Assembly (NCBI GenBank): GCA_018831265.1
Contig: JAHJCO010000005.1
Span: 1-64,000 of the forward strand
Direction of reading: 5' to 3'
Length of the DNA stretch: 64,000 bases
Source: Actinomycetota bacterium
Lineage (GTDB): Bacteria > Actinomycetota > Geothermincolia > Fen-727 > Anoxymicrobiaceae
Shown: positions 15,002 through 47,028 of the stretch, in pieces
Position numbering within the stretch: position 1 is the stretch's first letter
Layout of the letters: each line of letters opens with the position of its first letter
Program-made: the position numbers and the translations under genes
Notes under the pieces: generated by a model
Database searches by the model: none
Told to the model about the DNA's origin: nothing
Seen by the model: the letters and a program-made list of their open reading frames with translations, nothing else

Positions 15002-15080
15002 TGAAAGAATACCTCAGACCATTTCTTTCATCCATCACAATGGCTTCCCAGTGAAAGTTTCGGTCTGAGGTATTCTTTCA
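15002..15080. repeat. Inverted pair of 29-nt units (REPIN-like), copy 2
   Basis: Units at 15002-15030 and 15052-15080 are inverted with a 21-nt spacer. Both begin TGAAAG and end CTTTCA, with the core CCTCAGACC and its complement. The element starts three bases after the stop codon of the giant secreted protein, so it may serve as its transcript end. Confidence 0.85.
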
Positions 15081-15290: not shown

Positions 15291-17189
15291 ATGAGTTCCA
15301 GACTGACAGCCATCATAGTGGGGGCGGCGCTCCTCTCGCTGCTCGGAGCGGGGCTCGCCTCGGCGGGCGAGCAGGAGGGCGGCCGCGCGGCACTGGTGTG
15401 CCTGGACCCCGGCCACGGGGGCCCCGACTCCGGAGCGGTGGCGAACGGCGTCCTGGAGAAGGACGTGAACCTGGACATCGGGCTGCGCGCCCACGAAGAG
15501 CTGAATAAGCTCAACTACGACGTGATGATGACCCGGACCACCGACGTCCAGCCGACGCTGCAGGAGCGCTGCGACATGGCGAACGCCGCGCGCGCCAGCA
15601 TCTTCGTGAGCATCCACAACAACGCTTACACCGAGGCGTCCCAGGGTACCGAGACCTACTGCTACTACAACTCGGGCGAGGGCCGCCGGCTGGCCACCTA
15701 CATACAGGAGCAGGTGCTACTCAAGTGCGAGCGCCCGGACCGCGGCGTGAAGGAGGCCAACTTCTTCGTACTGCGTAACACAGATATGCCCGCGTCCCTG
15801 GTCGAGGGCGCATTCCTCACCAACCCCGCCGAGGCTGCGTTGCTGTCCGACCCCTTTTTCAGGCAGAAGATCGCCGAGGGGATCGCGCTGGGCATCCACG
15901 GATACTTTACTGACACTGCCAGGTTCGACACCTACATGCTGCTGGCGAATCCCGACGGCGAGGCCACCGCGCAGGTCCAGCTCGACTACATGCGGGGCGA
16001 TGGTGTGGTGCAGAGCCAGTCGCTGGAGTTGCCTCCCTTCAGCCGACGGACCATCCACCTCGACGAGATCGTCCTGGTGAACGACGTGTCGACGTGCGTT
16101 CGCAGCACCAACGGGGTCCCGGTGATCGCCGAAAGAGCCATGTACTTCTCCTTCGAGAGGGGGAGGGGGGGCCATGCCGCGCCCGGGGTCGCCTCCCCGG
16201 CCTGCGAGTGGTACCTGGCCGAGGGCTCCACGGACTGGGGGTTCGACACCTTCGTCCTTGTTCAGAACCCGGACGACAACGAGAACCCGGTCACCCTCCG
16301 GTTCATGCGCTCCGACGGGTACACCACCGACTTCACCTACACCATGGACCCGCACTCGCGCTTCACCCTGGAGTGCCCCGACGTGGAGGGGTTCGAACAG
16401 GCCGACTTCTCGGTGAAGGTCACCGCGGCCTACCCGGTGGTTGTCGAGCGGGCAATGTACTTCAACAACCACGACGGCAAGGCCGGAGGCCAGGACTCCC
16501 CGGCGGTCACCGCTCCGGCTACGACGTGGTACCTCGCCGAGGGCTATACCGGCGACGGGTTCGACACCTTCGTCCTGCTGATGAACCCGGGTGGGGAGCC
16601 GGCCCGTGTGAAGGTGAACTACCTGGTGCCGGGGGGAGAGGTCGTCACCGGCGAGTACGAGGTCCCCGCCGAGACCCGCAGGACCGTGCACGTGGACGAG
16701 GTGCCCGGGCTGGAGGACAGCGAGGTCTCCTTCGCCGTGGAGTCGGACCGGCCGGTGGTGGTCGAGCGGTCGATGTACTTCGAGTACGGGGGCGTCACCG
16801 AGGGCACGAACTCGACGGCCACCGATTCCCTTGCCAACGACTGGTTCCTCGCCGAGGGGTACACCGGCCCCGGTTTTGACACCTACATCCTGCTCGCCAA
16901 CCCCACGCAGACCGACCAGGGCGCCAACGTGAGGTTCCTCCGGGAGGACGGCACGACCTCGGAGACCAGCATCTCCATACCGGCCGGCTGCCGGAGGACC
17001 ATCACCGTCAACAACCTGGCGGGCATGGAGAACGTGTCGTTTGCCACCTGCGTGTACGGCACGGGGCCCATCGTGGTCGAGCGGGCAAAATACTTCCTCT
17101 ACGGGAACAACAAGGACGGCGGCGAGAACTCGATGGCCGTGAAGGCACCCTCTCTGGCCTGGTACTTCGCCGAAGGCTGCACGAGGTGA
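15291..17189 (+). CDS. Secreted N-acetylmuramoyl-L-alanine amidase with four WYLAEG repeats
   Basis: A 632-residue exported peptidoglycan amidase. A signal peptide (about 1-25) is followed by an Amidase_3 domain (about 33-210) with all expected metal and catalytic residues: His42 (DPGHGG), Glu56 (VLEKDVN), His109 (VSIHNNA) and Glu172 (LVEGAFLTN). It cleaves the MurNAc to L-Ala bond. Four repeat units follow without a linker; the first begins at FDTYMLLANP rather than at WYLAEG, and the chain stops just after a final WYFAEGCTR. The ATG at 15291 precedes the signal peptide; ribosome binding sequence is weak. An intrinsic terminator in the leader and only 4 bp to the next gene suggest a conditional two-gene unit of wall hydrolases. 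Confidence 0.9.
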   Translation: MSSRLTAIIVGAALLSLLGAGLASAGEQEGGRAALVCLDPGHGGPDSGAVANGVLEKDVNLDIGLRAHEELNKLNYDVMMTRTTDVQPTLQERCDMANAARASIFVSIHNNAYTEASQGTETYCYYNSGEGRRLATYIQEQVLLKCERPDRGVKEANFFVLRNTDMPASLVEGAFLTNPAEAALLSDPFFRQKIAEGIALGIHGYFTDTARFDTYMLLANPDGEATAQVQLDYMRGDGVVQSQSLELPPFSRRTIHLDEIVLVNDVSTCVRSTNGVPVIAERAMYFSFERGRGGHAAPGVASPACEWYLAEGSTDWGFDTFVLVQNPDDNENPVTLRFMRSDGYTTDFTYTMDPHSRFTLECPDVEGFEQADFSVKVTAAYPVVVERAMYFNNHDGKAGGQDSPAVTAPATTWYLAEGYTGDGFDTFVLLMNPGGEPARVKVNYLVPGGEVVTGEYEVPAETRRTVHVDEVPGLEDSEVSFAVESDRPVVVERSMYFEYGGVTEGTNSTATDSLANDWFLAEGYTGPGFDTYILLANPTQTDQGANVRFLREDGTTSETSISIPAGCRRTITVNNLAGMENVSFATCVYGTGPIVVERAKYFLYGNNKDGGENSMAVKAPSLAWYFAEGCTR

Positions 17190-17193
17190 TGCG

Positions 17194-19554
17194 ATGTTCA
17201 GCAGGAAGCAGCCGCGTCACACGGTCGCGGCCCTGCTGGTCGCGGCCCTCCTGACGGCCGCCGCCGCCGGGCTGACGGCCCCCGCCATCGCCGAGACCTT
17301 CCCCGATACGACCGGGCTGCCCGCCGAGCTGCAGCAGGCGGTGGACTACGTCACGGCCAGGGGCTGGATGAACGGCGGCGACGACGGGAACTTCCACCCG
17401 AACGACCCGATCCTGCGCCTCGAGTACTGCTGCGCGCTGACCCGGCTCTTCGGCGTCGACGGGGAGCAGACCGACCCCGGCATCCACTTCACCGACCTGC
17501 CGGATTCCGATCCCGGCTACAGGTACGCGAACCTTTCGGTCAAGCACGGCTACATCCAGCCTTACCCGGACGGGTCGTTCCAGCCGTACGGCCAGCATTC
17601 GGCCGCCGCCGCGCTCTCCGGGCTGGTGGCCGGCCTGGAGCTGGACGGGGCGGCCGAAGACGCCCAGGGCTTGTATCCCTTTGCGCCTGCCTACAGCGGG
17701 GTCTCCATCGCGGCGAACGACCTTCACCTGAAGTACCGCGACACGCGGGTGCTGCCGACCGGCTTCTACCCCCGCGTCGAGCTGGCCTACAGCCTCCAGA
17801 GGGCCGACCAGATGGAGGAATGGCGCCTGGATTACGTCGAGGAGACCTTCAACTGGCTGCGCTGCCAGACGCCTCTGATGGGCGTGCAGAGGGACAGGGC
17901 GATCGCGAGTGCCTTCTCCAAGATGGGCTACCCGTACGTCTGGGGCGGTGAGTCCGACGCCGAGGGCGGATACGATTGCTCGGGGCTGGTCTACTACGTC
18001 CTGGGTTCCTGCCTCGGCCACCCCATGATGAGATGTGCCGACGACCAGGCGGCCGACGGGCGCTATGCCGCGCTGAGCCGTCCGGAGCTGCTGGCCGGAG
18101 ACCCCATCTTCTTCTACGACTCCTCCGGGGACGGGAGCGTCGGCCACGCCGGGATATACGTGGGCCGCGGTCTGTTCATCCACTCGACGGGCAGCAACGC
18201 CGGCGTGAGCGTCGACTACCTGGATGACGGGGGTTACTGGGGGAGCCATTTCGCCTGCGGCAAGCGGGTGATTGGCGAGGGCGAGCCCGCCTCTTTCGAC
18301 ACCTACGTGCTGCTGATGAACCCCGACGGGACCCCCGCCACCGCGCGGCTGACCTACCAGCTGAAGGACGGCAGGCAGATCGCCCAGGAGGTGGGTCTCG
18401 AGCCGTATACGCGCGAGACAGTGAGGGTGGACGACACGCTGGTCAACCAGGAGTTCTCATGCGTGGTGGACGCGACTCAGGGGAGGGTCATCGCCGAGCG
18501 CTCCATGTACTTCCGCTACCTCGACACCTACCCGGGGGGGCACTCCAGCCCCGGGGTCACCGGGCCCTCCACCGACTGGTACCTGGCGGAGGGGTGCACC
18601 GCGTACGGGTTCGACACATACGTGCTGCTGCAGAACCCGTCCGACCAGGCGTCCGAGGCGACCCTCACCTTCATGAACGAGTCGGGGAACACCGTGGCCG
18701 TGCAGTGTACAGTCGGTCCGTTCTCCCGCGATACGGTCTGCGTGGACTCCGTGTCGGGGATGGAGCAGTCGGAGTTCTCCACCCGCGTGACCTCGAGCAG
18801 GCCGCTGGTGGTCGAGCGTTCGATGTACTTCGACTACCTGGGCATCAAAGAGGGCCACAGCTCGGCCGGCCTGACGGAGCTCTCGAACGAATGGTACTTC
18901 GCCGAGGGCTATACCGGGGGCGGCTTTGACACCTACGTCCTTCTCGCCAATCCGACCGACTACCTCACCCATGTCACCATGACCCTTTTCGGGGACGGCG
19001 GGGCCCCCGCCGACATAGAGTTCGGCATAGCGCCCCACGCCCGGCGGACCATTGCCGTCGACGACATCCGTGGCTGGTCGGACAGGGCTTTCTCCATCCG
19101 CCTGCGCGCGACGCAGCCGGTCGCGGCCGAGCGGGCCATGTACTTCGACTACGAGGGGATCGAGGGTGGGCACGGCGCTTCGGGCGCGCCCGCGCCGCGA
19201 AACCAGTGGTACCTCGCCGAGGGGTACACCGCCGGGGCGTTCGATACCTACGTTCTGCTGTCCAACCCGGGGGACGAGGAGGCGGACGTCTCGGTGCGGT
19301 TCATGCTCAACGGCGGTAGTTTTGTTGATGAAACGTATAACGTACCACCGCGCTCGCGTTTTACCATACCGGTGGACGCGGTGGACGGTCTGTCCGCCGA
19401 GGAGGTCGGCACGTTGGTGAGCAGCGACAGGCCCGTGGTGGTCGAGCGCTCCACCTACTTCAGCTACCTCGGGAGGAGCGGGGGGACGTGCTCGAGCGGG
19501 GTGGGGGACGCCGCCGATCGCTGGTACTTCGCGGAGGGGTACACGGGACGGTAG
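17194..19554 (+). CDS. Secreted SLH + NlpC/P60 wall hydrolase with four WYLAEG repeats
   Basis: A 786-residue exported protein. After a signal peptide (about 1-33) come two SLH-type segments (about 35-90 and 95-148) and a degenerate third, which would bind wall-linked polymers. The NlpC/P60 cysteine-peptidase domain has Cys262 (YDCSGLVYYV), His318 (VGHAGIYVG) and His330 (FIHSTG). Such enzymes cut peptide stems of peptidoglycan. Four repeat units run from FDTYVLLMNP to the C-terminal WYFAEGYTGR, using the same register as the amidase. The ATG lies 4 bp after the amidase stop and is preceded by AGGTGAT, so the two are one operon. It ends immediately before an AT-rich island. Confidence 0.9.
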   Translation: MFSRKQPRHTVAALLVAALLTAAAAGLTAPAIAETFPDTTGLPAELQQAVDYVTARGWMNGGDDGNFHPNDPILRLEYCCALTRLFGVDGEQTDPGIHFTDLPDSDPGYRYANLSVKHGYIQPYPDGSFQPYGQHSAAAALSGLVAGLELDGAAEDAQGLYPFAPAYSGVSIAANDLHLKYRDTRVLPTGFYPRVELAYSLQRADQMEEWRLDYVEETFNWLRCQTPLMGVQRDRAIASAFSKMGYPYVWGGESDAEGGYDCSGLVYYVLGSCLGHPMMRCADDQAADGRYAALSRPELLAGDPIFFYDSSGDGSVGHAGIYVGRGLFIHSTGSNAGVSVDYLDDGGYWGSHFACGKRVIGEGEPASFDTYVLLMNPDGTPATARLTYQLKDGRQIAQEVGLEPYTRETVRVDDTLVNQEFSCVVDATQGRVIAERSMYFRYLDTYPGGHSSPGVTGPSTDWYLAEGCTAYGFDTYVLLQNPSDQASEATLTFMNESGNTVAVQCTVGPFSRDTVCVDSVSGMEQSEFSTRVTSSRPLVVERSMYFDYLGIKEGHSSAGLTELSNEWYFAEGYTGGGFDTYVLLANPTDYLTHVTMTLFGDGGAPADIEFGIAPHARRTIAVDDIRGWSDRAFSIRLRATQPVAAERAMYFDYEGIEGGHGASGAPAPRNQWYLAEGYTAGAFDTYVLLSNPGDEEADVSVRFMLNGGSFVDETYNVPPRSRFTIPVDAVDGLSAEEVGTLVSSDRPVVVERSTYFSYLGRSGGTCSSGVGDAADRWYFAEGYTGR

Positions 19555-19612
19555 TATTAACAGGAATAGTTGTTTATTAACAGAATGTTACTATTATTAA
19601 CAACAACAACAA
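19555..19612 (+). repeat. AT-rich island with three TATTAACA copies at 20-bp spacing
   Basis: TATTAACA begins at 19555, 19575 and 19595, exactly 20 bp apart (about two helical turns), then a run of CAA triplets. The stretch is about 75% A+T in a strongly GC-rich window. It starts right after the stop of the NlpC/P60 gene and precedes the SpoIID-like gene, so a regulator binding array or promoter region is possible. Confidence 0.6.
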
Positions 19613-19617
19613 ATGAT

Positions 19618-19644
19618 GTGCAAAAGGGTCAGGCACTTTTGCAC
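19618..19644. repeat. Palindrome with GGTCAGGCA loop
   Basis: Arms GTGCAAAAG and CTTTTGCAC are exact reverse complements around the 9-base loop GGTCAGGCA. A close relative (GTGCAAAAGGGTC/GACCCTTTTGCAC) occurs at 29889-29915. It lies in the 5' region of the SpoIID-like gene. Confidence 0.75.
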
Positions 19645-19663
19645 GCGGAGGACGGTTGAAGCA

Positions 19664-21871
19664 ATGAGAAGACTGGGTGTGATGGCCGCCACGGCCATGC
19701 TGCTGATGGGATTCGCGGTTCCCGGGGGAGCGGGAGCGCCCCCGAGGAGCGGTTCGGCCGACGCAAGCTACTTCATCGTAGGGCACGGGCGCGCCCACGG
19801 GGTCGGGATGTGTATGGACGGCGTCTACTACATGGCGGAGGACGGGTGGAGCTACCAGGACATCCTCTCCTACTACTACACGGGCATCACCTTCTCGGCG
19901 TGCGACGAGGCCCAGCCCATCAGGGTCAAGGGCAGGGACGGCCAGATACGGGTCTGGACCATGCACGACTACCTGCACCACCTCCAGGAGGAGCCGGACA
20001 ACTACCCGATGGAGGAGCTGAAGGCCCTCTACGTCGCGGCGCGCACGTACACGCTGTCGTGCATCGCCAGGAACAAGCACACCGCCGAGGGTTTCGACAT
20101 CTGCTCGTCGGGCGACTGCTGCCAGGCGTGCGACGAGAACAAAGATATCACCGCCTATCCCAACAACAACGCGGCCGTAGACGCTACGGCCGGCCAGATC
20201 ATGACCTACGGCGGCAAGCCCATCACCGCCGCGTACTGCGGGTCTTGCGGCGGCCACACCGAGAACAACGAGGACGTCTGGGGCGGAAGCGCCATCCCTT
20301 ACCTGAGGGGCAAGCCGGACCCGTACTGCTGCAGGTCTCCCCGATACGAGTGGTCCGCCACCTACAGCAGGGCCCAGATGGAGGCGATACTGAACTCCAG
20401 GTCCGAGACGGCCGTAGGCAGCCTCTACGTGCTGGACTTCGATTACATGAGGACACCCGGCGGCAGGGTCAAGACGGCGAAGATCGTCGGCTCGGACGCC
20501 ATAAAGTACCCGTCGGGCAGCCTCCTGCAGTCCATGTTCGGTTTCTCCAACACCAAGTTCGGGCTGGTGCGCTCGAACTTCGACGAGTACATACTGGTGC
20601 TGAACCCCAATCCCCGGACCGCCATCGTCACCTTCACGTTCATGAAGCCTGACGGCACGTGCTCGGACGCGGTCTACGAGGTGGGGGCGAACTCCCGTTT
20701 CACCCTCAAGGTCAACGACCTGATGCAGTTCCAGGAGGTATCGACCCGGGTGGTATCCGACCTGCCGGTGGTCGCCGAGCGCGCGATGTACTTCGACCTG
20801 GCGGGCCGCTACTGCGGGGGGACGGCCTCGGAGGGGATCCCCGCCGCGCGGCCCCGCTGGTACTTCGCCGAGGGGTACACCGGTGGCTCCTTCAAGACCT
20901 ACATCCTGGTCCAGAACCCCGGCGGCGAGCAGGCCGATCTGAAGTTCACCTGCATGCTGCCCGGGGGCGCGACCGTGGAGCACACCATGCAGGCGCCTGC
21001 TTCCTCCCGCGTGAGCGTCTGCCTGAACGACATCCCCGGCCTCGAGAACGCGGAGGTCTCGACCCTCGTCGAGAGCACGAACGGCAGGGACATCGTCGCC
21101 GAGCGCGCCTGTTACTTCGACTACCAGGGGCGCGACGGGGGCCACGTGGCGCCCGGCGTGAGCACCCCGGCATTGGAGTGGCACCTGGCCGAGGGCTACA
21201 CCGGCGGCCTGTTCGACACCTACGCGCTGGTGCAGAACCCGACGGACGAGGTCGCCAGGATCGCGGTGTCGTTCTTCAAGGAGGACGGAGAGGTCATCGG
21301 GAAATCGTACGCCGTGCCAGCGCACTCACGGTTCACGATACACCCCGACGAGATACCGGGACTGGAGAACGCCGGGTTCTCCACGCGGCTGAAGGCGACC
21401 AACGGGGTTCCTATCATCGCCGAGCGGGCCATGTACTTCGACTACAACGGCTGCGGGCTGGACGACGGCTCCTGCGGGCAGGGGGTCAGCGAGCCGTCCG
21501 AGCAGTGGTACTTCGCCGAGGGCTACACGGGCGGGGCGTTCGACACCTGGGTGCTCATAGAGAACCCTGAGGAGGAAGCCGCGCAGGTCACGGTGACGTT
21601 CAACACCCCGGGCGGGGGGGCCAGCGTGCAGCAGTACGAGGTAGAGCCCCATTCCAGGTTCACCGTACACGTCGACGAGGTCGCCGGGCTCTCTGACGCG
21701 GAGGTCTCCACCTCGGTCGTATCCGCCAACGGCGTGAAGGTCGTCGCGGAGCGCGCGGTCTACTTCGTCTACTCGGACGGCTACTGCACGAGGGACGGCG
21801 GACACGACAGCGTCGGGGTGAACGCCCCGGCGAACACGTGGTACTTCGCCGAAGGGTACACCGGATTCTGA
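19664..21871 (+). CDS. Secreted SpoIID/LytB-like protein with four WYFAEG repeats
   Basis: A 735-residue exported protein. A signal peptide (about 1-30) precedes a SpoIID-type domain (about 35-285) with VAARTYTLS and AYCGSCGGHTENNEDVWGG, which match the conserved part of SpoIID/LytB proteins. In sporulators SpoIID is a lytic transglycosylase acting on denuded glycan; here the role is probably wall remodelling, not sporulation. Many cysteines occur in the insert CSSGDCCQACDE. Four repeats run from FDEYILVLNP to the terminal WYFAEGYTGF. I start at ATG 19664 because GGAGGAC lies upstream; an earlier in-frame start overlaps a palindrome. The deacetylase follows after 11 bp. Confidence 0.87.
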   Translation: MRRLGVMAATAMLLMGFAVPGGAGAPPRSGSADASYFIVGHGRAHGVGMCMDGVYYMAEDGWSYQDILSYYYTGITFSACDEAQPIRVKGRDGQIRVWTMHDYLHHLQEEPDNYPMEELKALYVAARTYTLSCIARNKHTAEGFDICSSGDCCQACDENKDITAYPNNNAAVDATAGQIMTYGGKPITAAYCGSCGGHTENNEDVWGGSAIPYLRGKPDPYCCRSPRYEWSATYSRAQMEAILNSRSETAVGSLYVLDFDYMRTPGGRVKTAKIVGSDAIKYPSGSLLQSMFGFSNTKFGLVRSNFDEYILVLNPNPRTAIVTFTFMKPDGTCSDAVYEVGANSRFTLKVNDLMQFQEVSTRVVSDLPVVAERAMYFDLAGRYCGGTASEGIPAARPRWYFAEGYTGGSFKTYILVQNPGGEQADLKFTCMLPGGATVEHTMQAPASSRVSVCLNDIPGLENAEVSTLVESTNGRDIVAERACYFDYQGRDGGHVAPGVSTPALEWHLAEGYTGGLFDTYALVQNPTDEVARIAVSFFKEDGEVIGKSYAVPAHSRFTIHPDEIPGLENAGFSTRLKATNGVPIIAERAMYFDYNGCGLDDGSCGQGVSEPSEQWYFAEGYTGGAFDTWVLIENPEEEAAQVTVTFNTPGGGASVQQYEVEPHSRFTVHVDEVAGLSDAEVSTSVVSANGVKVVAERAVYFVYSDGYCTRDGGHDSVGVNAPANTWYFAEGYTGF

Positions 21872-21882
21872 CCGGGAGTTCG

Positions 21883-22860
21883 ATGATAGTCCACCGCGAC
21901 AAGGTTCAAAAGCTCGGAGCGCTCCTCATCGTGCTCTCCCTGGCGATGGCCGGGGTGCAGCTGGCCTGGCGGATAACGCCCAGACAGGTCGTTCGACCCG
22001 CCTCGGTCGTCAAAGCGCACAGCGCCGCGGCGGACGCGGAGCGGACCGGCCCGCCGCCGGAGGTGGAGGTCCGGGGACTCTCCTACCAGCCTCCGACAGG
22101 CAAGGCGACCGGCGTCGCGGGTGGACCGGCCGCGATGCGCGAGGCCGGGACGCTTAAAGGCTACAGCGTGCCCCCCGACCGCCTCGCCTTCGAGCCCGAC
22201 GGCTCGGCCGTCTTCCTCCCGACGCCGCCGCCCGTGGGCGGCCGAGTGGCCGCGCGGACCGTGCGCTCAGGCAGCGACGCCGCCGAGGCGAGCAGGAGGG
22301 TGGCCCTCACCTTCGACTCCAGCGACGTCTCCGAGCCCGCCGCCAGGGCCGTCATCGACGAGCTCACCCGCCTGAGGGCCCCCGCGACCTTCTTCGTCTG
22401 CGGGCGCTGGTGCGAGCGTAACCCCGAGCTGTGCCGGCTGGCGTCAGAGCGCGGGTTCGAGATGGCGAACCACTCCTATGCCCACCCCGACTTCCGTACA
22501 CTCACCAACGAGCAGATCACAGCCGAGCTGAAAAGGACCGAGCAGGCGTACACCGCCCTCACGGGGGAGACTATGGCCGCCTACTTCCGCCCCCCATACG
22601 GGAGCACCGACGCCCGGGTGCAGCAGGTCGCAGCGGATAACGGTTACACCGTCGCGATGTGGAGCAGGGACACGCGCGACTGGTCCGGCGCGGCGCGCGA
22701 GCAGATACGGGACGTAGCCTCCGGTGCGCTCGCCGGGAGCGAGATCATCATCATGCACATGAACGCCCCCCACACCGTAGAGGCCCTCGCCGAGATCGTC
22801 ACCAACCTGCGCGCCGGGGGGTTTGAGCTGACCACACTCTCGGGTGTGCTCCTGCCCTAG
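21883..22860 (+). CDS. Membrane-anchored polysaccharide deacetylase (CE4)
   Basis: A 325-residue protein with an N-terminal signal anchor (about 10-29), a Pro-rich linker and a NodB/CE4 domain (about 135-320). Motifs: TFDSSD (motif 1), His197 and His201 in HSYAHPD (motif 2), RPPYGS (motif 3), DTRDW (motif 4) and IIIMHMN (motif 5). Motif 1 normally reads TFDDG, where the second Asp binds the metal; here that position is Ser146, though an Asp follows two residues on. The enzyme would remove N-acetyl groups from GlcNAc or MurNAc polymers outside the membrane. GGGAG precedes ATG 21883, 11 bp after the SpoIID-like gene, so co-transcription is likely. Confidence 0.87.
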   Translation: MIVHRDKVQKLGALLIVLSLAMAGVQLAWRITPRQVVRPASVVKAHSAAADAERTGPPPEVEVRGLSYQPPTGKATGVAGGPAAMREAGTLKGYSVPPDRLAFEPDGSAVFLPTPPPVGGRVAARTVRSGSDAAEASRRVALTFDSSDVSEPAARAVIDELTRLRAPATFFVCGRWCERNPELCRLASERGFEMANHSYAHPDFRTLTNEQITAELKRTEQAYTALTGETMAAYFRPPYGSTDARVQQVAADNGYTVAMWSRDTRDWSGAAREQIRDVASGALAGSEIIIMHMNAPHTVEALAEIVTNLRAGGFELTTLSGVLLP

Positions 22861-24030: not shown

Positions 24031-24138
24031 GGGTGCCAGGCAGGATTCAATTCACTATGAAAGTGAGTGAAAGAATACCTCAGACCAAAAGTTTCATCCC
24101 AGGAGCAATTGAAAGAAATGGTCTGAGGTATTCTTTCA
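24031..24138. repeat. GTGCCAGGCA motif plus inverted pair of 29-nt units, copy 3
   Basis: GTGCCAGGCA (from 24031) is followed by inverted units at 24068-24096 and 24110-24138 with a 13-nt spacer. Compared with copy 2, the inner halves are exchanged: the left unit ends AAAAGTTTCA and the right unit starts TGAAAGAAATGG. It fills the gap between rmlA and the rmlC-like gene, so it would lie inside an operon mRNA. Confidence 0.82.
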
Positions 24139-46922: not shown

Positions 46923-47028
46923 TGAAAGAAAACCTCAAACCATTTCTTTCAATGAAAGAAAACCTCAGACCATTTCTTTCAAGGTGAAAGTTTTGGTCTG
47001 AGGTGATCTTTCAGAGGTGATCTTTCAG
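46923..47028. repeat. Three 29-nt units with tandem half-duplication, copy 4
   Basis: Two direct units (46923-46951, 46953-46981) are followed by one inverted unit (46985-47013), then a partial repeat of its end (GAGGTGATCTTTCAG). The first two differ at a single base in the core (CTCAAACC against CTCAGACC). It lies between convergent genes ending at 46866 and 47030. Confidence 0.85.

Follow-up and report, generated by a model that had tools for sequence, protein, structure and literature searches.

The A/T-rich island ahead of a gene for a SpoIID-domain wall protein carries what appears to be a conserved promoter-operator, a reading well supported by comparison with relatives; a wall regulon sharing the same array is suggested, and the regulator, its identity, and its direction of control are what we infer from these sequences. 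The window analyzed was a stretch of 64,000 nt of genome G000 (3.87 Mb, 94.8% complete), and positions are given in window coordinates. We consider it probable that the island combines the promoter of the SpoIID gene with an overlaid operator of three NNNAC half-sites for a regulator of the OmpR/PhoB type (MtrA/WalR-like). The features are listed in Table 1.

The array of three boxes is real, has an exact 20-bp spacing, and is not a product of chance. The original prediction had placed TATTAACA at 19555, 19575, and 19595, in an A/T-rich island of a GC-rich region, directly after a stop codon and between two wall-hydrolase genes, and all of this was borne out. The three boxes lie on the + strand and are the sole exact copies in the window (3 versus 0.12 expected in 64 kb, with three reached in 0 of 100 shuffles); the G+C content is 35% in 19550-19649 versus 56% to 78% in the other 100-bp windows of 17000-22000, and 24% in the island itself (19551-19616); and the stop codon is TAG at 19552-19554. 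When the island was shuffled, any 8-mer occurred three times in 8 of 20,000 shuffles, and three times with equal spacing and without overlap in none of the 20,000. A search of the whole genome for further arrays, as had been proposed, found 13 exact copies of TATTAACA including the three boxes, and the array in the window was the only one in 3.87 Mb. The location between two wall-hydrolase genes is valid in the sense of domains, because a protein with SLH and NlpC/P60 domains is encoded before the island and a SpoIID-domain protein after it. The GTTAC word at 19587-19591 and the REP palindrome at 19618-19644 had not been part of the original prediction.

Table 1. Features of the island, its surroundings, and related repeats (window coordinates unless a contig is named)
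Feature	Position	Strand	Remark
Upstream gene, SLH + NlpC/P60 + DUF5719 protein	17194-19554	+	Domain matches; C-terminus WYFAEGYTGR, then stop
Box 1, TATTAACA	19555-19562	+	Contains TTAAC 19557-19561
Box 2, TATTAACA	19575-19582	+	Conserved half-site TTAAC 19577-19581
Box 3, TATTAACA	19595-19602	+	Conserved half-site TTAAC 19597-19601; overlaps -10-like TATTAT
Middle half-site GTTAC	19587-19591	+	10 bp from either neighbor (box 2, box 3)
-10-like TATTAT	19592-19597	+	Aligned with the -10 words of relatives
Possible -35, TTGTTT	19570-19575	+	16 bp ahead of the -10; weak, 3/6; from sequence
SigH-type promoter match, ACAGGAATA-N11-ACAGAATGT	19560-19588	+	1 mismatch; genuine or by chance; G000 only
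REP palindrome, GTGCAAAAG-N9-CTTTTGCAC	19618-19644		27 bp, 9-bp arms, in the SpoIID leader; no strand
Probable Shine-Dalgarno sequence GGAGG	19647-19651	+	12 nt ahead of ATG 19664
Downstream gene, SpoIID-domain wall protein with DUF5719	19664-21871	+	Start 19664 probable
Places of AAAGAATACCTCAGACC	15004-15020 / 15062-15078; 24070-24086 / 24120-24136; 39-55 / 108-124; 46925-47011		Mismatch search
Dispersed repeat loci in G000	L144 C58, L154 C11, L155 C53, L156 C7, L158 C51, L159 C35		

The open reading frame of the SpoIID gene opens at 19613, and its initial 17 codons cross the REP palindrome; because the palindrome lies inside the leader and is followed by GGAGG and the ATG at 19664, 19613 is probably not the true start. 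RNA structure was rejected as an explanation (z = -1.51; 16 of 200 shuffles fold equally well), and Rfam gave no match at E ≤ 1 in 19400-19800. Three successive surface proteins with DUF5719 (ends 17189, 19554, and 21871) share the tail WYFAEG(Y/C)T followed by 1-2 residues and the stop, and a pattern search found a similar WYFAEG tail on the upstream gene in 12 of 13 same-order genomes; the tail could conceivably be a C-terminal signal. Elsewhere in the window, the 17-bp word AAAGAATACCTCAGACC has nine matches at ≤2 mismatches (0.00 expected), arranged in facing pairs and one trio, which resembles a small mobile element of the inverted-repeat type.

A search of 59 genomes, G000 among them, found SpoIID-like proteins in 45, and 25 SpoIID upstream stretches were compared (9 same-family, 4 same-order from G009-G012, and 12 class-level). 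Lack of conservation in close relatives had been named as the outcome that would count against the original prediction, and it did not occur: the element TnATAATTAACAGAAATnTACTATAATTAACA lies ungapped at the same locus in five of the nine same-family genomes (G000, G001, G005, G006, and G008), and in each of them its score against a leave-one-out matrix was reached by 0 of 1000 shuffles of the genome's own intergenic sequence. The distance from box 2 to box 3 is 20 bp in all five, and between these boxes the alignment columns A20-C21 are invariant, so that AC recurs every 10 bp. Because GTTAC lies midway between the conserved boxes and box 3 overlaps a TATwAT -10, the conserved unit, as read from the alignments, consists of three NNNAC half-sites spaced 10 bp apart. 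The original interpretation is thus supported in part. Of the three boxes, only 2 and 3 are conserved; box 1 (19555) has no counterpart seen in relatives and occurs only in G000. The 20-bp distance, which had been attributed to a cooperative regulator binding one DNA face, is kept, but the step that is conserved is 10 bp, with a half-site in the middle. The comparison of the intergenic region in relatives, also proposed earlier, showed conservation within the family that stops there: the element was found in 0 of the 4 other-family genomes of the same order (G009-G012), and it is absent from the same-family genomes G002, G003, and G004. In G007 a version of box 2 is all that remains, and its score of 3.2 likewise exceeds those of 1000 shuffles. 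Compared with the congeneric species G008 (L090), G007 (L089) is without the -10 and the last half-site, apparently through a deletion in the stretch that separates box 2 from the gene.

A -10 of the sigma-A kind is present in all five SpoIID elements, weakly in one: TATTAT in G000, TATAAT in G006 and G008, TATAGT in G001, and TGTAAT in G005. When a -35 (TTGACA) was looked for at 16-18 bp, the candidate words were TTGTTT in G000 and TTGATA in G006, and none was clear in G001, G005, or G008. Since box 3 overlaps the -10 sequence, a portion of the island is plain promoter sequence. Box 1 TTAACA at 19557 was rejected as a sigma-70 -35 (18 bp from CAGAAT at 19586), as that -10 is not conserved. 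Among the 12 class-level SpoIID upstream stretches, the SpoIID matrix gave matches in G024 and G014 that beat 200 of 200 shuffles and in G018, G015, and G023 that were reached by 2, 2, and 3 of 200; all but one of the five lie on the minus strand and their scores range from -7.5 to 10.5 versus at least 17.7 in the five family members, and they were not accepted as the element. Matches of a half-site matrix in G015 (0 of 500 shuffles) and G023 (2 of 500) were on the minus strand and were likewise not counted. In G017 (L108, outside the 12), two TTAAC words lie 20 bp apart at 2424-2448 in an A/T-rich stretch upstream of SpoIID; the pair is on the strand opposite to the gene and was not counted. 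Nine regions upstream of SpoIID paralogs, mostly coding, showed no array on reading.

A comparable array was found at a second promoter. A sequence model made from the SpoIID elements only was run over 12 genomes (without G008) and gave 32 matches at E ≤ 10; the four training sites scored best, as expected, and the 28 weaker matches included the promoters of sigH-like genes in G000 (E 2.3), G006 (E 1.3), and G010 (E 0.8), E-values that are below threshold, for a link that was chosen after the matches had been seen. The SigH-like protein passes three NCBIfam models, two of which are named SigH (NF006148 and NF006145), and falls below the cut-off of TIGR02859; G000 also encodes a 46%-identical paralog. 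All six full-length same-family orthologs carry AACAGAARRTWAC..ACTYATTTGACA upstream, with AC at offsets 0, 10, 20, and 29, the last AC inside TTGACA, and (T/G)ATACT 17-19 bp beyond TTGACA, the spacer being a long 19 bp in four of the six. In G004 and G005 the search found only a gene of ~50% identity. When the SpoIID and sigH elements were aligned (11 rows), C9, A18, C19, A28, and C29 made up five of the eight invariant columns, that is, AC every 10 bp, and the A and C of the middle half-site were invariant in 11 of 11. A model combining both sets of elements matched two sigH promoters outside its training set, those of G010 (E 0.19) and G011 (E 1.5), as well as a site in G002 where contig C68 ends (E 0.14), which is probably the sigH promoter of G002 because a DnaK gene is nearby, as in G006. 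Other matches of similar strength lay without a clear wall gene (G013 C7 and G003 C87) or before mreB (G012).

To scan G000, an 8-bp half-site matrix from the 11 SpoIID and sigH elements was chained three times at 9-11 bp and applied to 1,225,567 bases, or 32% of the genome. There were 16 matches scoring ≥15 versus 4.0 per shuffled pass, and 7 scoring ≥18 versus 0.0 per shuffled pass (three passes). The window array ranked first (24.7), and untrained matches preceded mreB (19.9) and a gene for a hydrolase with CC_PcsB and NlpC/P60 domains (18.9); the further matches ≥18 were the trained sigH site, one at a RuBisCO-like gene, and two in a dispersed GGTGTCA repeat or its kin. Between 15 and 18, four matches fell in the repeat, one was an additional site at the PcsB gene, one was internal to an ORF, and three could be assigned no clear target, so that 2 of the 16 are training sites and at least 6 lie in the dispersed repeat. 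This repeat, GTGTCAGACATTTGAATCC(A/C)A(A/G)TAGTTAACTG, carries TTAAC words, has several copies near contig ends, and its variants also score with the half-site matrix; the sub-threshold R1 matches of G000 on contigs C58, C11, C53, C7, C51, and C35 were discarded as this one repeat. When the step was fixed at 7 to 14 bp, the 10-bp step gave 5 matches ≥18 and the other steps 0-1; at ≥15, the 10-bp step gave 8 (2 training sites and 2 repeats), the 12-bp step 5, and the 11-bp step none. Upstream of mreB, the SpoIID-only model had already given matches in G011 and G012, and all three mreB arrays (G000, G011, and G012) run opposite in direction to the gene.

Upstreams of ftsE were tested in 11 of the 12 fetched genomes (without G013). 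Within 350 bp, the score was reached by ≤2 of 500 shuffles in seven of the 11 (G000, G001, G004, G007, G009, G011, and G012), and no clear array was seen in G005, G006, G003, and G002, where 27, 49, 245, and 305 shuffles of 500 reached it. Because the G012 array had prompted the test, G011 belongs to the same genus as G012, and the match in G000, 349 bp upstream, falls in GC-rich, probably coding DNA, independent support comes from four genomes. Within 200 bp, the counts per 500 shuffles were 4 in G001, 0 in G004, 2 in G007, and 1 in G009, and at least 40 in the rest. The ftsE arrays of G011 and G012 abut the -35, like the sigH arrays. A site 69 bp upstream of an ftsZ frame (L223) is a lead only (E 4.9; half-site score 16.0, reached by 2 of 500 shuffles; the site was picked post hoc).

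Six proteins of G000 score above the Trans_reg_C cut-off as OmpR-type regulators, none of which reaches the MtrA or YycF cut-off. The regulator L163, WalR/MtrA-like and adjoining a HAMP-HisKA kinase, scores best on YycF (274.7 bits, cut-off 340) and also has the best MtrA score in G000 (258.1, cut-off 300); on its likeness to YycF and MtrA it would be the best candidate, which is a guess. Its neighbors, as read, differ from those in the known wal and mtr operons, and reading the N-terminal residues of the ORFs that follow the L163 pair revealed nothing LpqB-like. The stretches before the six regulators had half-site scores of 5.1 at most.

Under the reading that we favor, the half-sites TTAAC, GTTAC, and TTAAC at exact 10-bp steps would form the operator, with an extra lineage-specific TTAAC 20 bp upstream, and most likely an OmpR/PhoB-type regulator, MtrA- or WalR-like in role, would bind them as tandem protomers on one DNA face. 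Since the -10 TATTAT lies within the array, the bound regulator would block the SpoIID promoter; because the array abuts the -35 at sigH, the same kind of array is proposed to activate there, and also at ftsE of G011 and G012. That one OmpR-type regulator may repress SpoIID and activate sigH is proposed from the position rule of Corynebacterium glutamicum MtrA, which represses near the -10 and activates upstream of the -35 (PMC3353115). A broader version is offered tentatively, and we would sooner doubt than assert it: a wall-growth regulon in which a WalR/MtrA-like regulator reads at least three half-sites at 10-bp steps, joining the SpoIID protein, a PcsB-type NlpC/P60 hydrolase, MreB, FtsEX in some relatives, perhaps FtsZ, and the SigH-like sigma factor, with repression over the -10 and activation at the -35. 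If true, this would provide an operator and a candidate wall-growth regulon for an uncultured Actinomycetota lineage whose named relatives in this comparison are all metagenome-assembled, and, with the SigH-like gene sharing the array, control of the wall would be linked to a sigma factor that takes its name from sporulation.

The most serious alternative, which we regard as unlikely, is a plain sigma-A promoter, in which conservation would reflect no more than the -10 with its flanks plus a short leader, and the likeness of the boxes would follow from A/T-rich composition. Such a promoter would account for the TATAAT or near version in all five elements, for the start codons shortly downstream in G006, G001, and G005, and for an A/T-rich island within a GC-rich genome; it accounts poorly, however, for box 2 TTAACA, which is conserved though it lies 9 bp from the -10 and is unfit as a -35, and for the like half-site pattern upstream of the sigH -35, where no -10 explains the pattern. 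That SpoIID transcription in G000 depends on a SigH-type promoter (RNAGGAWWW-N11-RNNGAATWW) at 19560-19588, with boxes 1 and 2 as by-products of it, is quite improbable. The two words of this consensus are separated by N11. The match is the sole one of its kind in the window, with a single mismatch reached by 11 of 3000 island shuffles, and the genome does encode a SigH-like protein and its paralog; against this, 0 of 12 upstream stretches of relatives match at ≤1 mismatch, and the consensus, whose words come from PMC8510167, was tried after the fact.

The idea that the island belongs to a mobile or repetitive element, such as the REP or the dispersed GGTGTCA repeat with its TTAAC words, is very improbable and largely refuted. 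The REP lies 15 bp after box 3 and the same models pick up the dispersed repeat, but the array is single-copy in G000, and the ungapped core stays at the same locus in relatives that have none of the REP core words searched for (G001 and G005) or have them in another place (G006). The palindrome itself is an abundant short one associated with a RAYT: its core occurs at 137 genomic places at ≤3 mismatches versus 2 for a reversed control, and G000 has 13 Y1 transposase matches, one of which, on contig C43 (L127), has facing palindrome copies on either side (346-372 and 1147-1173) and is a probable source of the family. The GGGTCAG core also occurs in the SpoIID intergenic space of G006 and G008, and that of G004 carries GTGCCAGGCAC.

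The favored promoter-operator can be set beside several known systems. As in REP/RAYT systems, a 27-bp palindrome family occupies more than 100 places and has copies flanking a Y1 transposase gene; unlike them, the REP here is separate from the boxes and leaves them unexplained. The array also has the features of an OmpR-type tandem operator, namely direct half-sites about one helical turn apart in a genome encoding OmpR-type regulators. A literature search limited to control of SpoIID promoters by response regulators in Actinobacteria returned nothing related. The WalR (YycF) box of Firmicutes, TGTWAH-N5-TGTWAH, has an 11-bp step and serves a regulon of wall hydrolases. Its reverse complement resembles the TTWACA-like half-site, and L163 scores best on YycF; the differences are the 11-bp step, the L163 score of 274.7 against the cut-off of 340, and the other phylum. 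The MtrA sites of C. glutamicum, Streptomyces coelicolor, and Mycobacterium tuberculosis are NTNAC-type direct repeats in promoters, near the -10 or upstream of the -35, with wall genes among the targets (PMC3353115, PMC5650626, and PMC6265350). The half-sites here are likewise of the NTNAC type, with a few departures among the 33 (e.g., ACAAC and GCGAC). C. glutamicum MtrA recognizes (A/G)TAACAATttn(A/G)TAACAAT, a loosely conserved direct repeat (PMC3353115). Two MtrA half-sites at an 11-bp step were not found: the reported step (8-bp repeat and 3-bp linker) is 11 bp versus 10 bp in all 11 rows here, and the bldD-a repeats of S. coelicolor are reported to lie one nucleotide closer than that. 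If true, the favored reading would bear on whether the WalR-type control of Firmicutes and the MtrA-type control of Actinobacteria have a common origin. The promoter-operator described here is of a kind already known, and a better than ordinary example of it.
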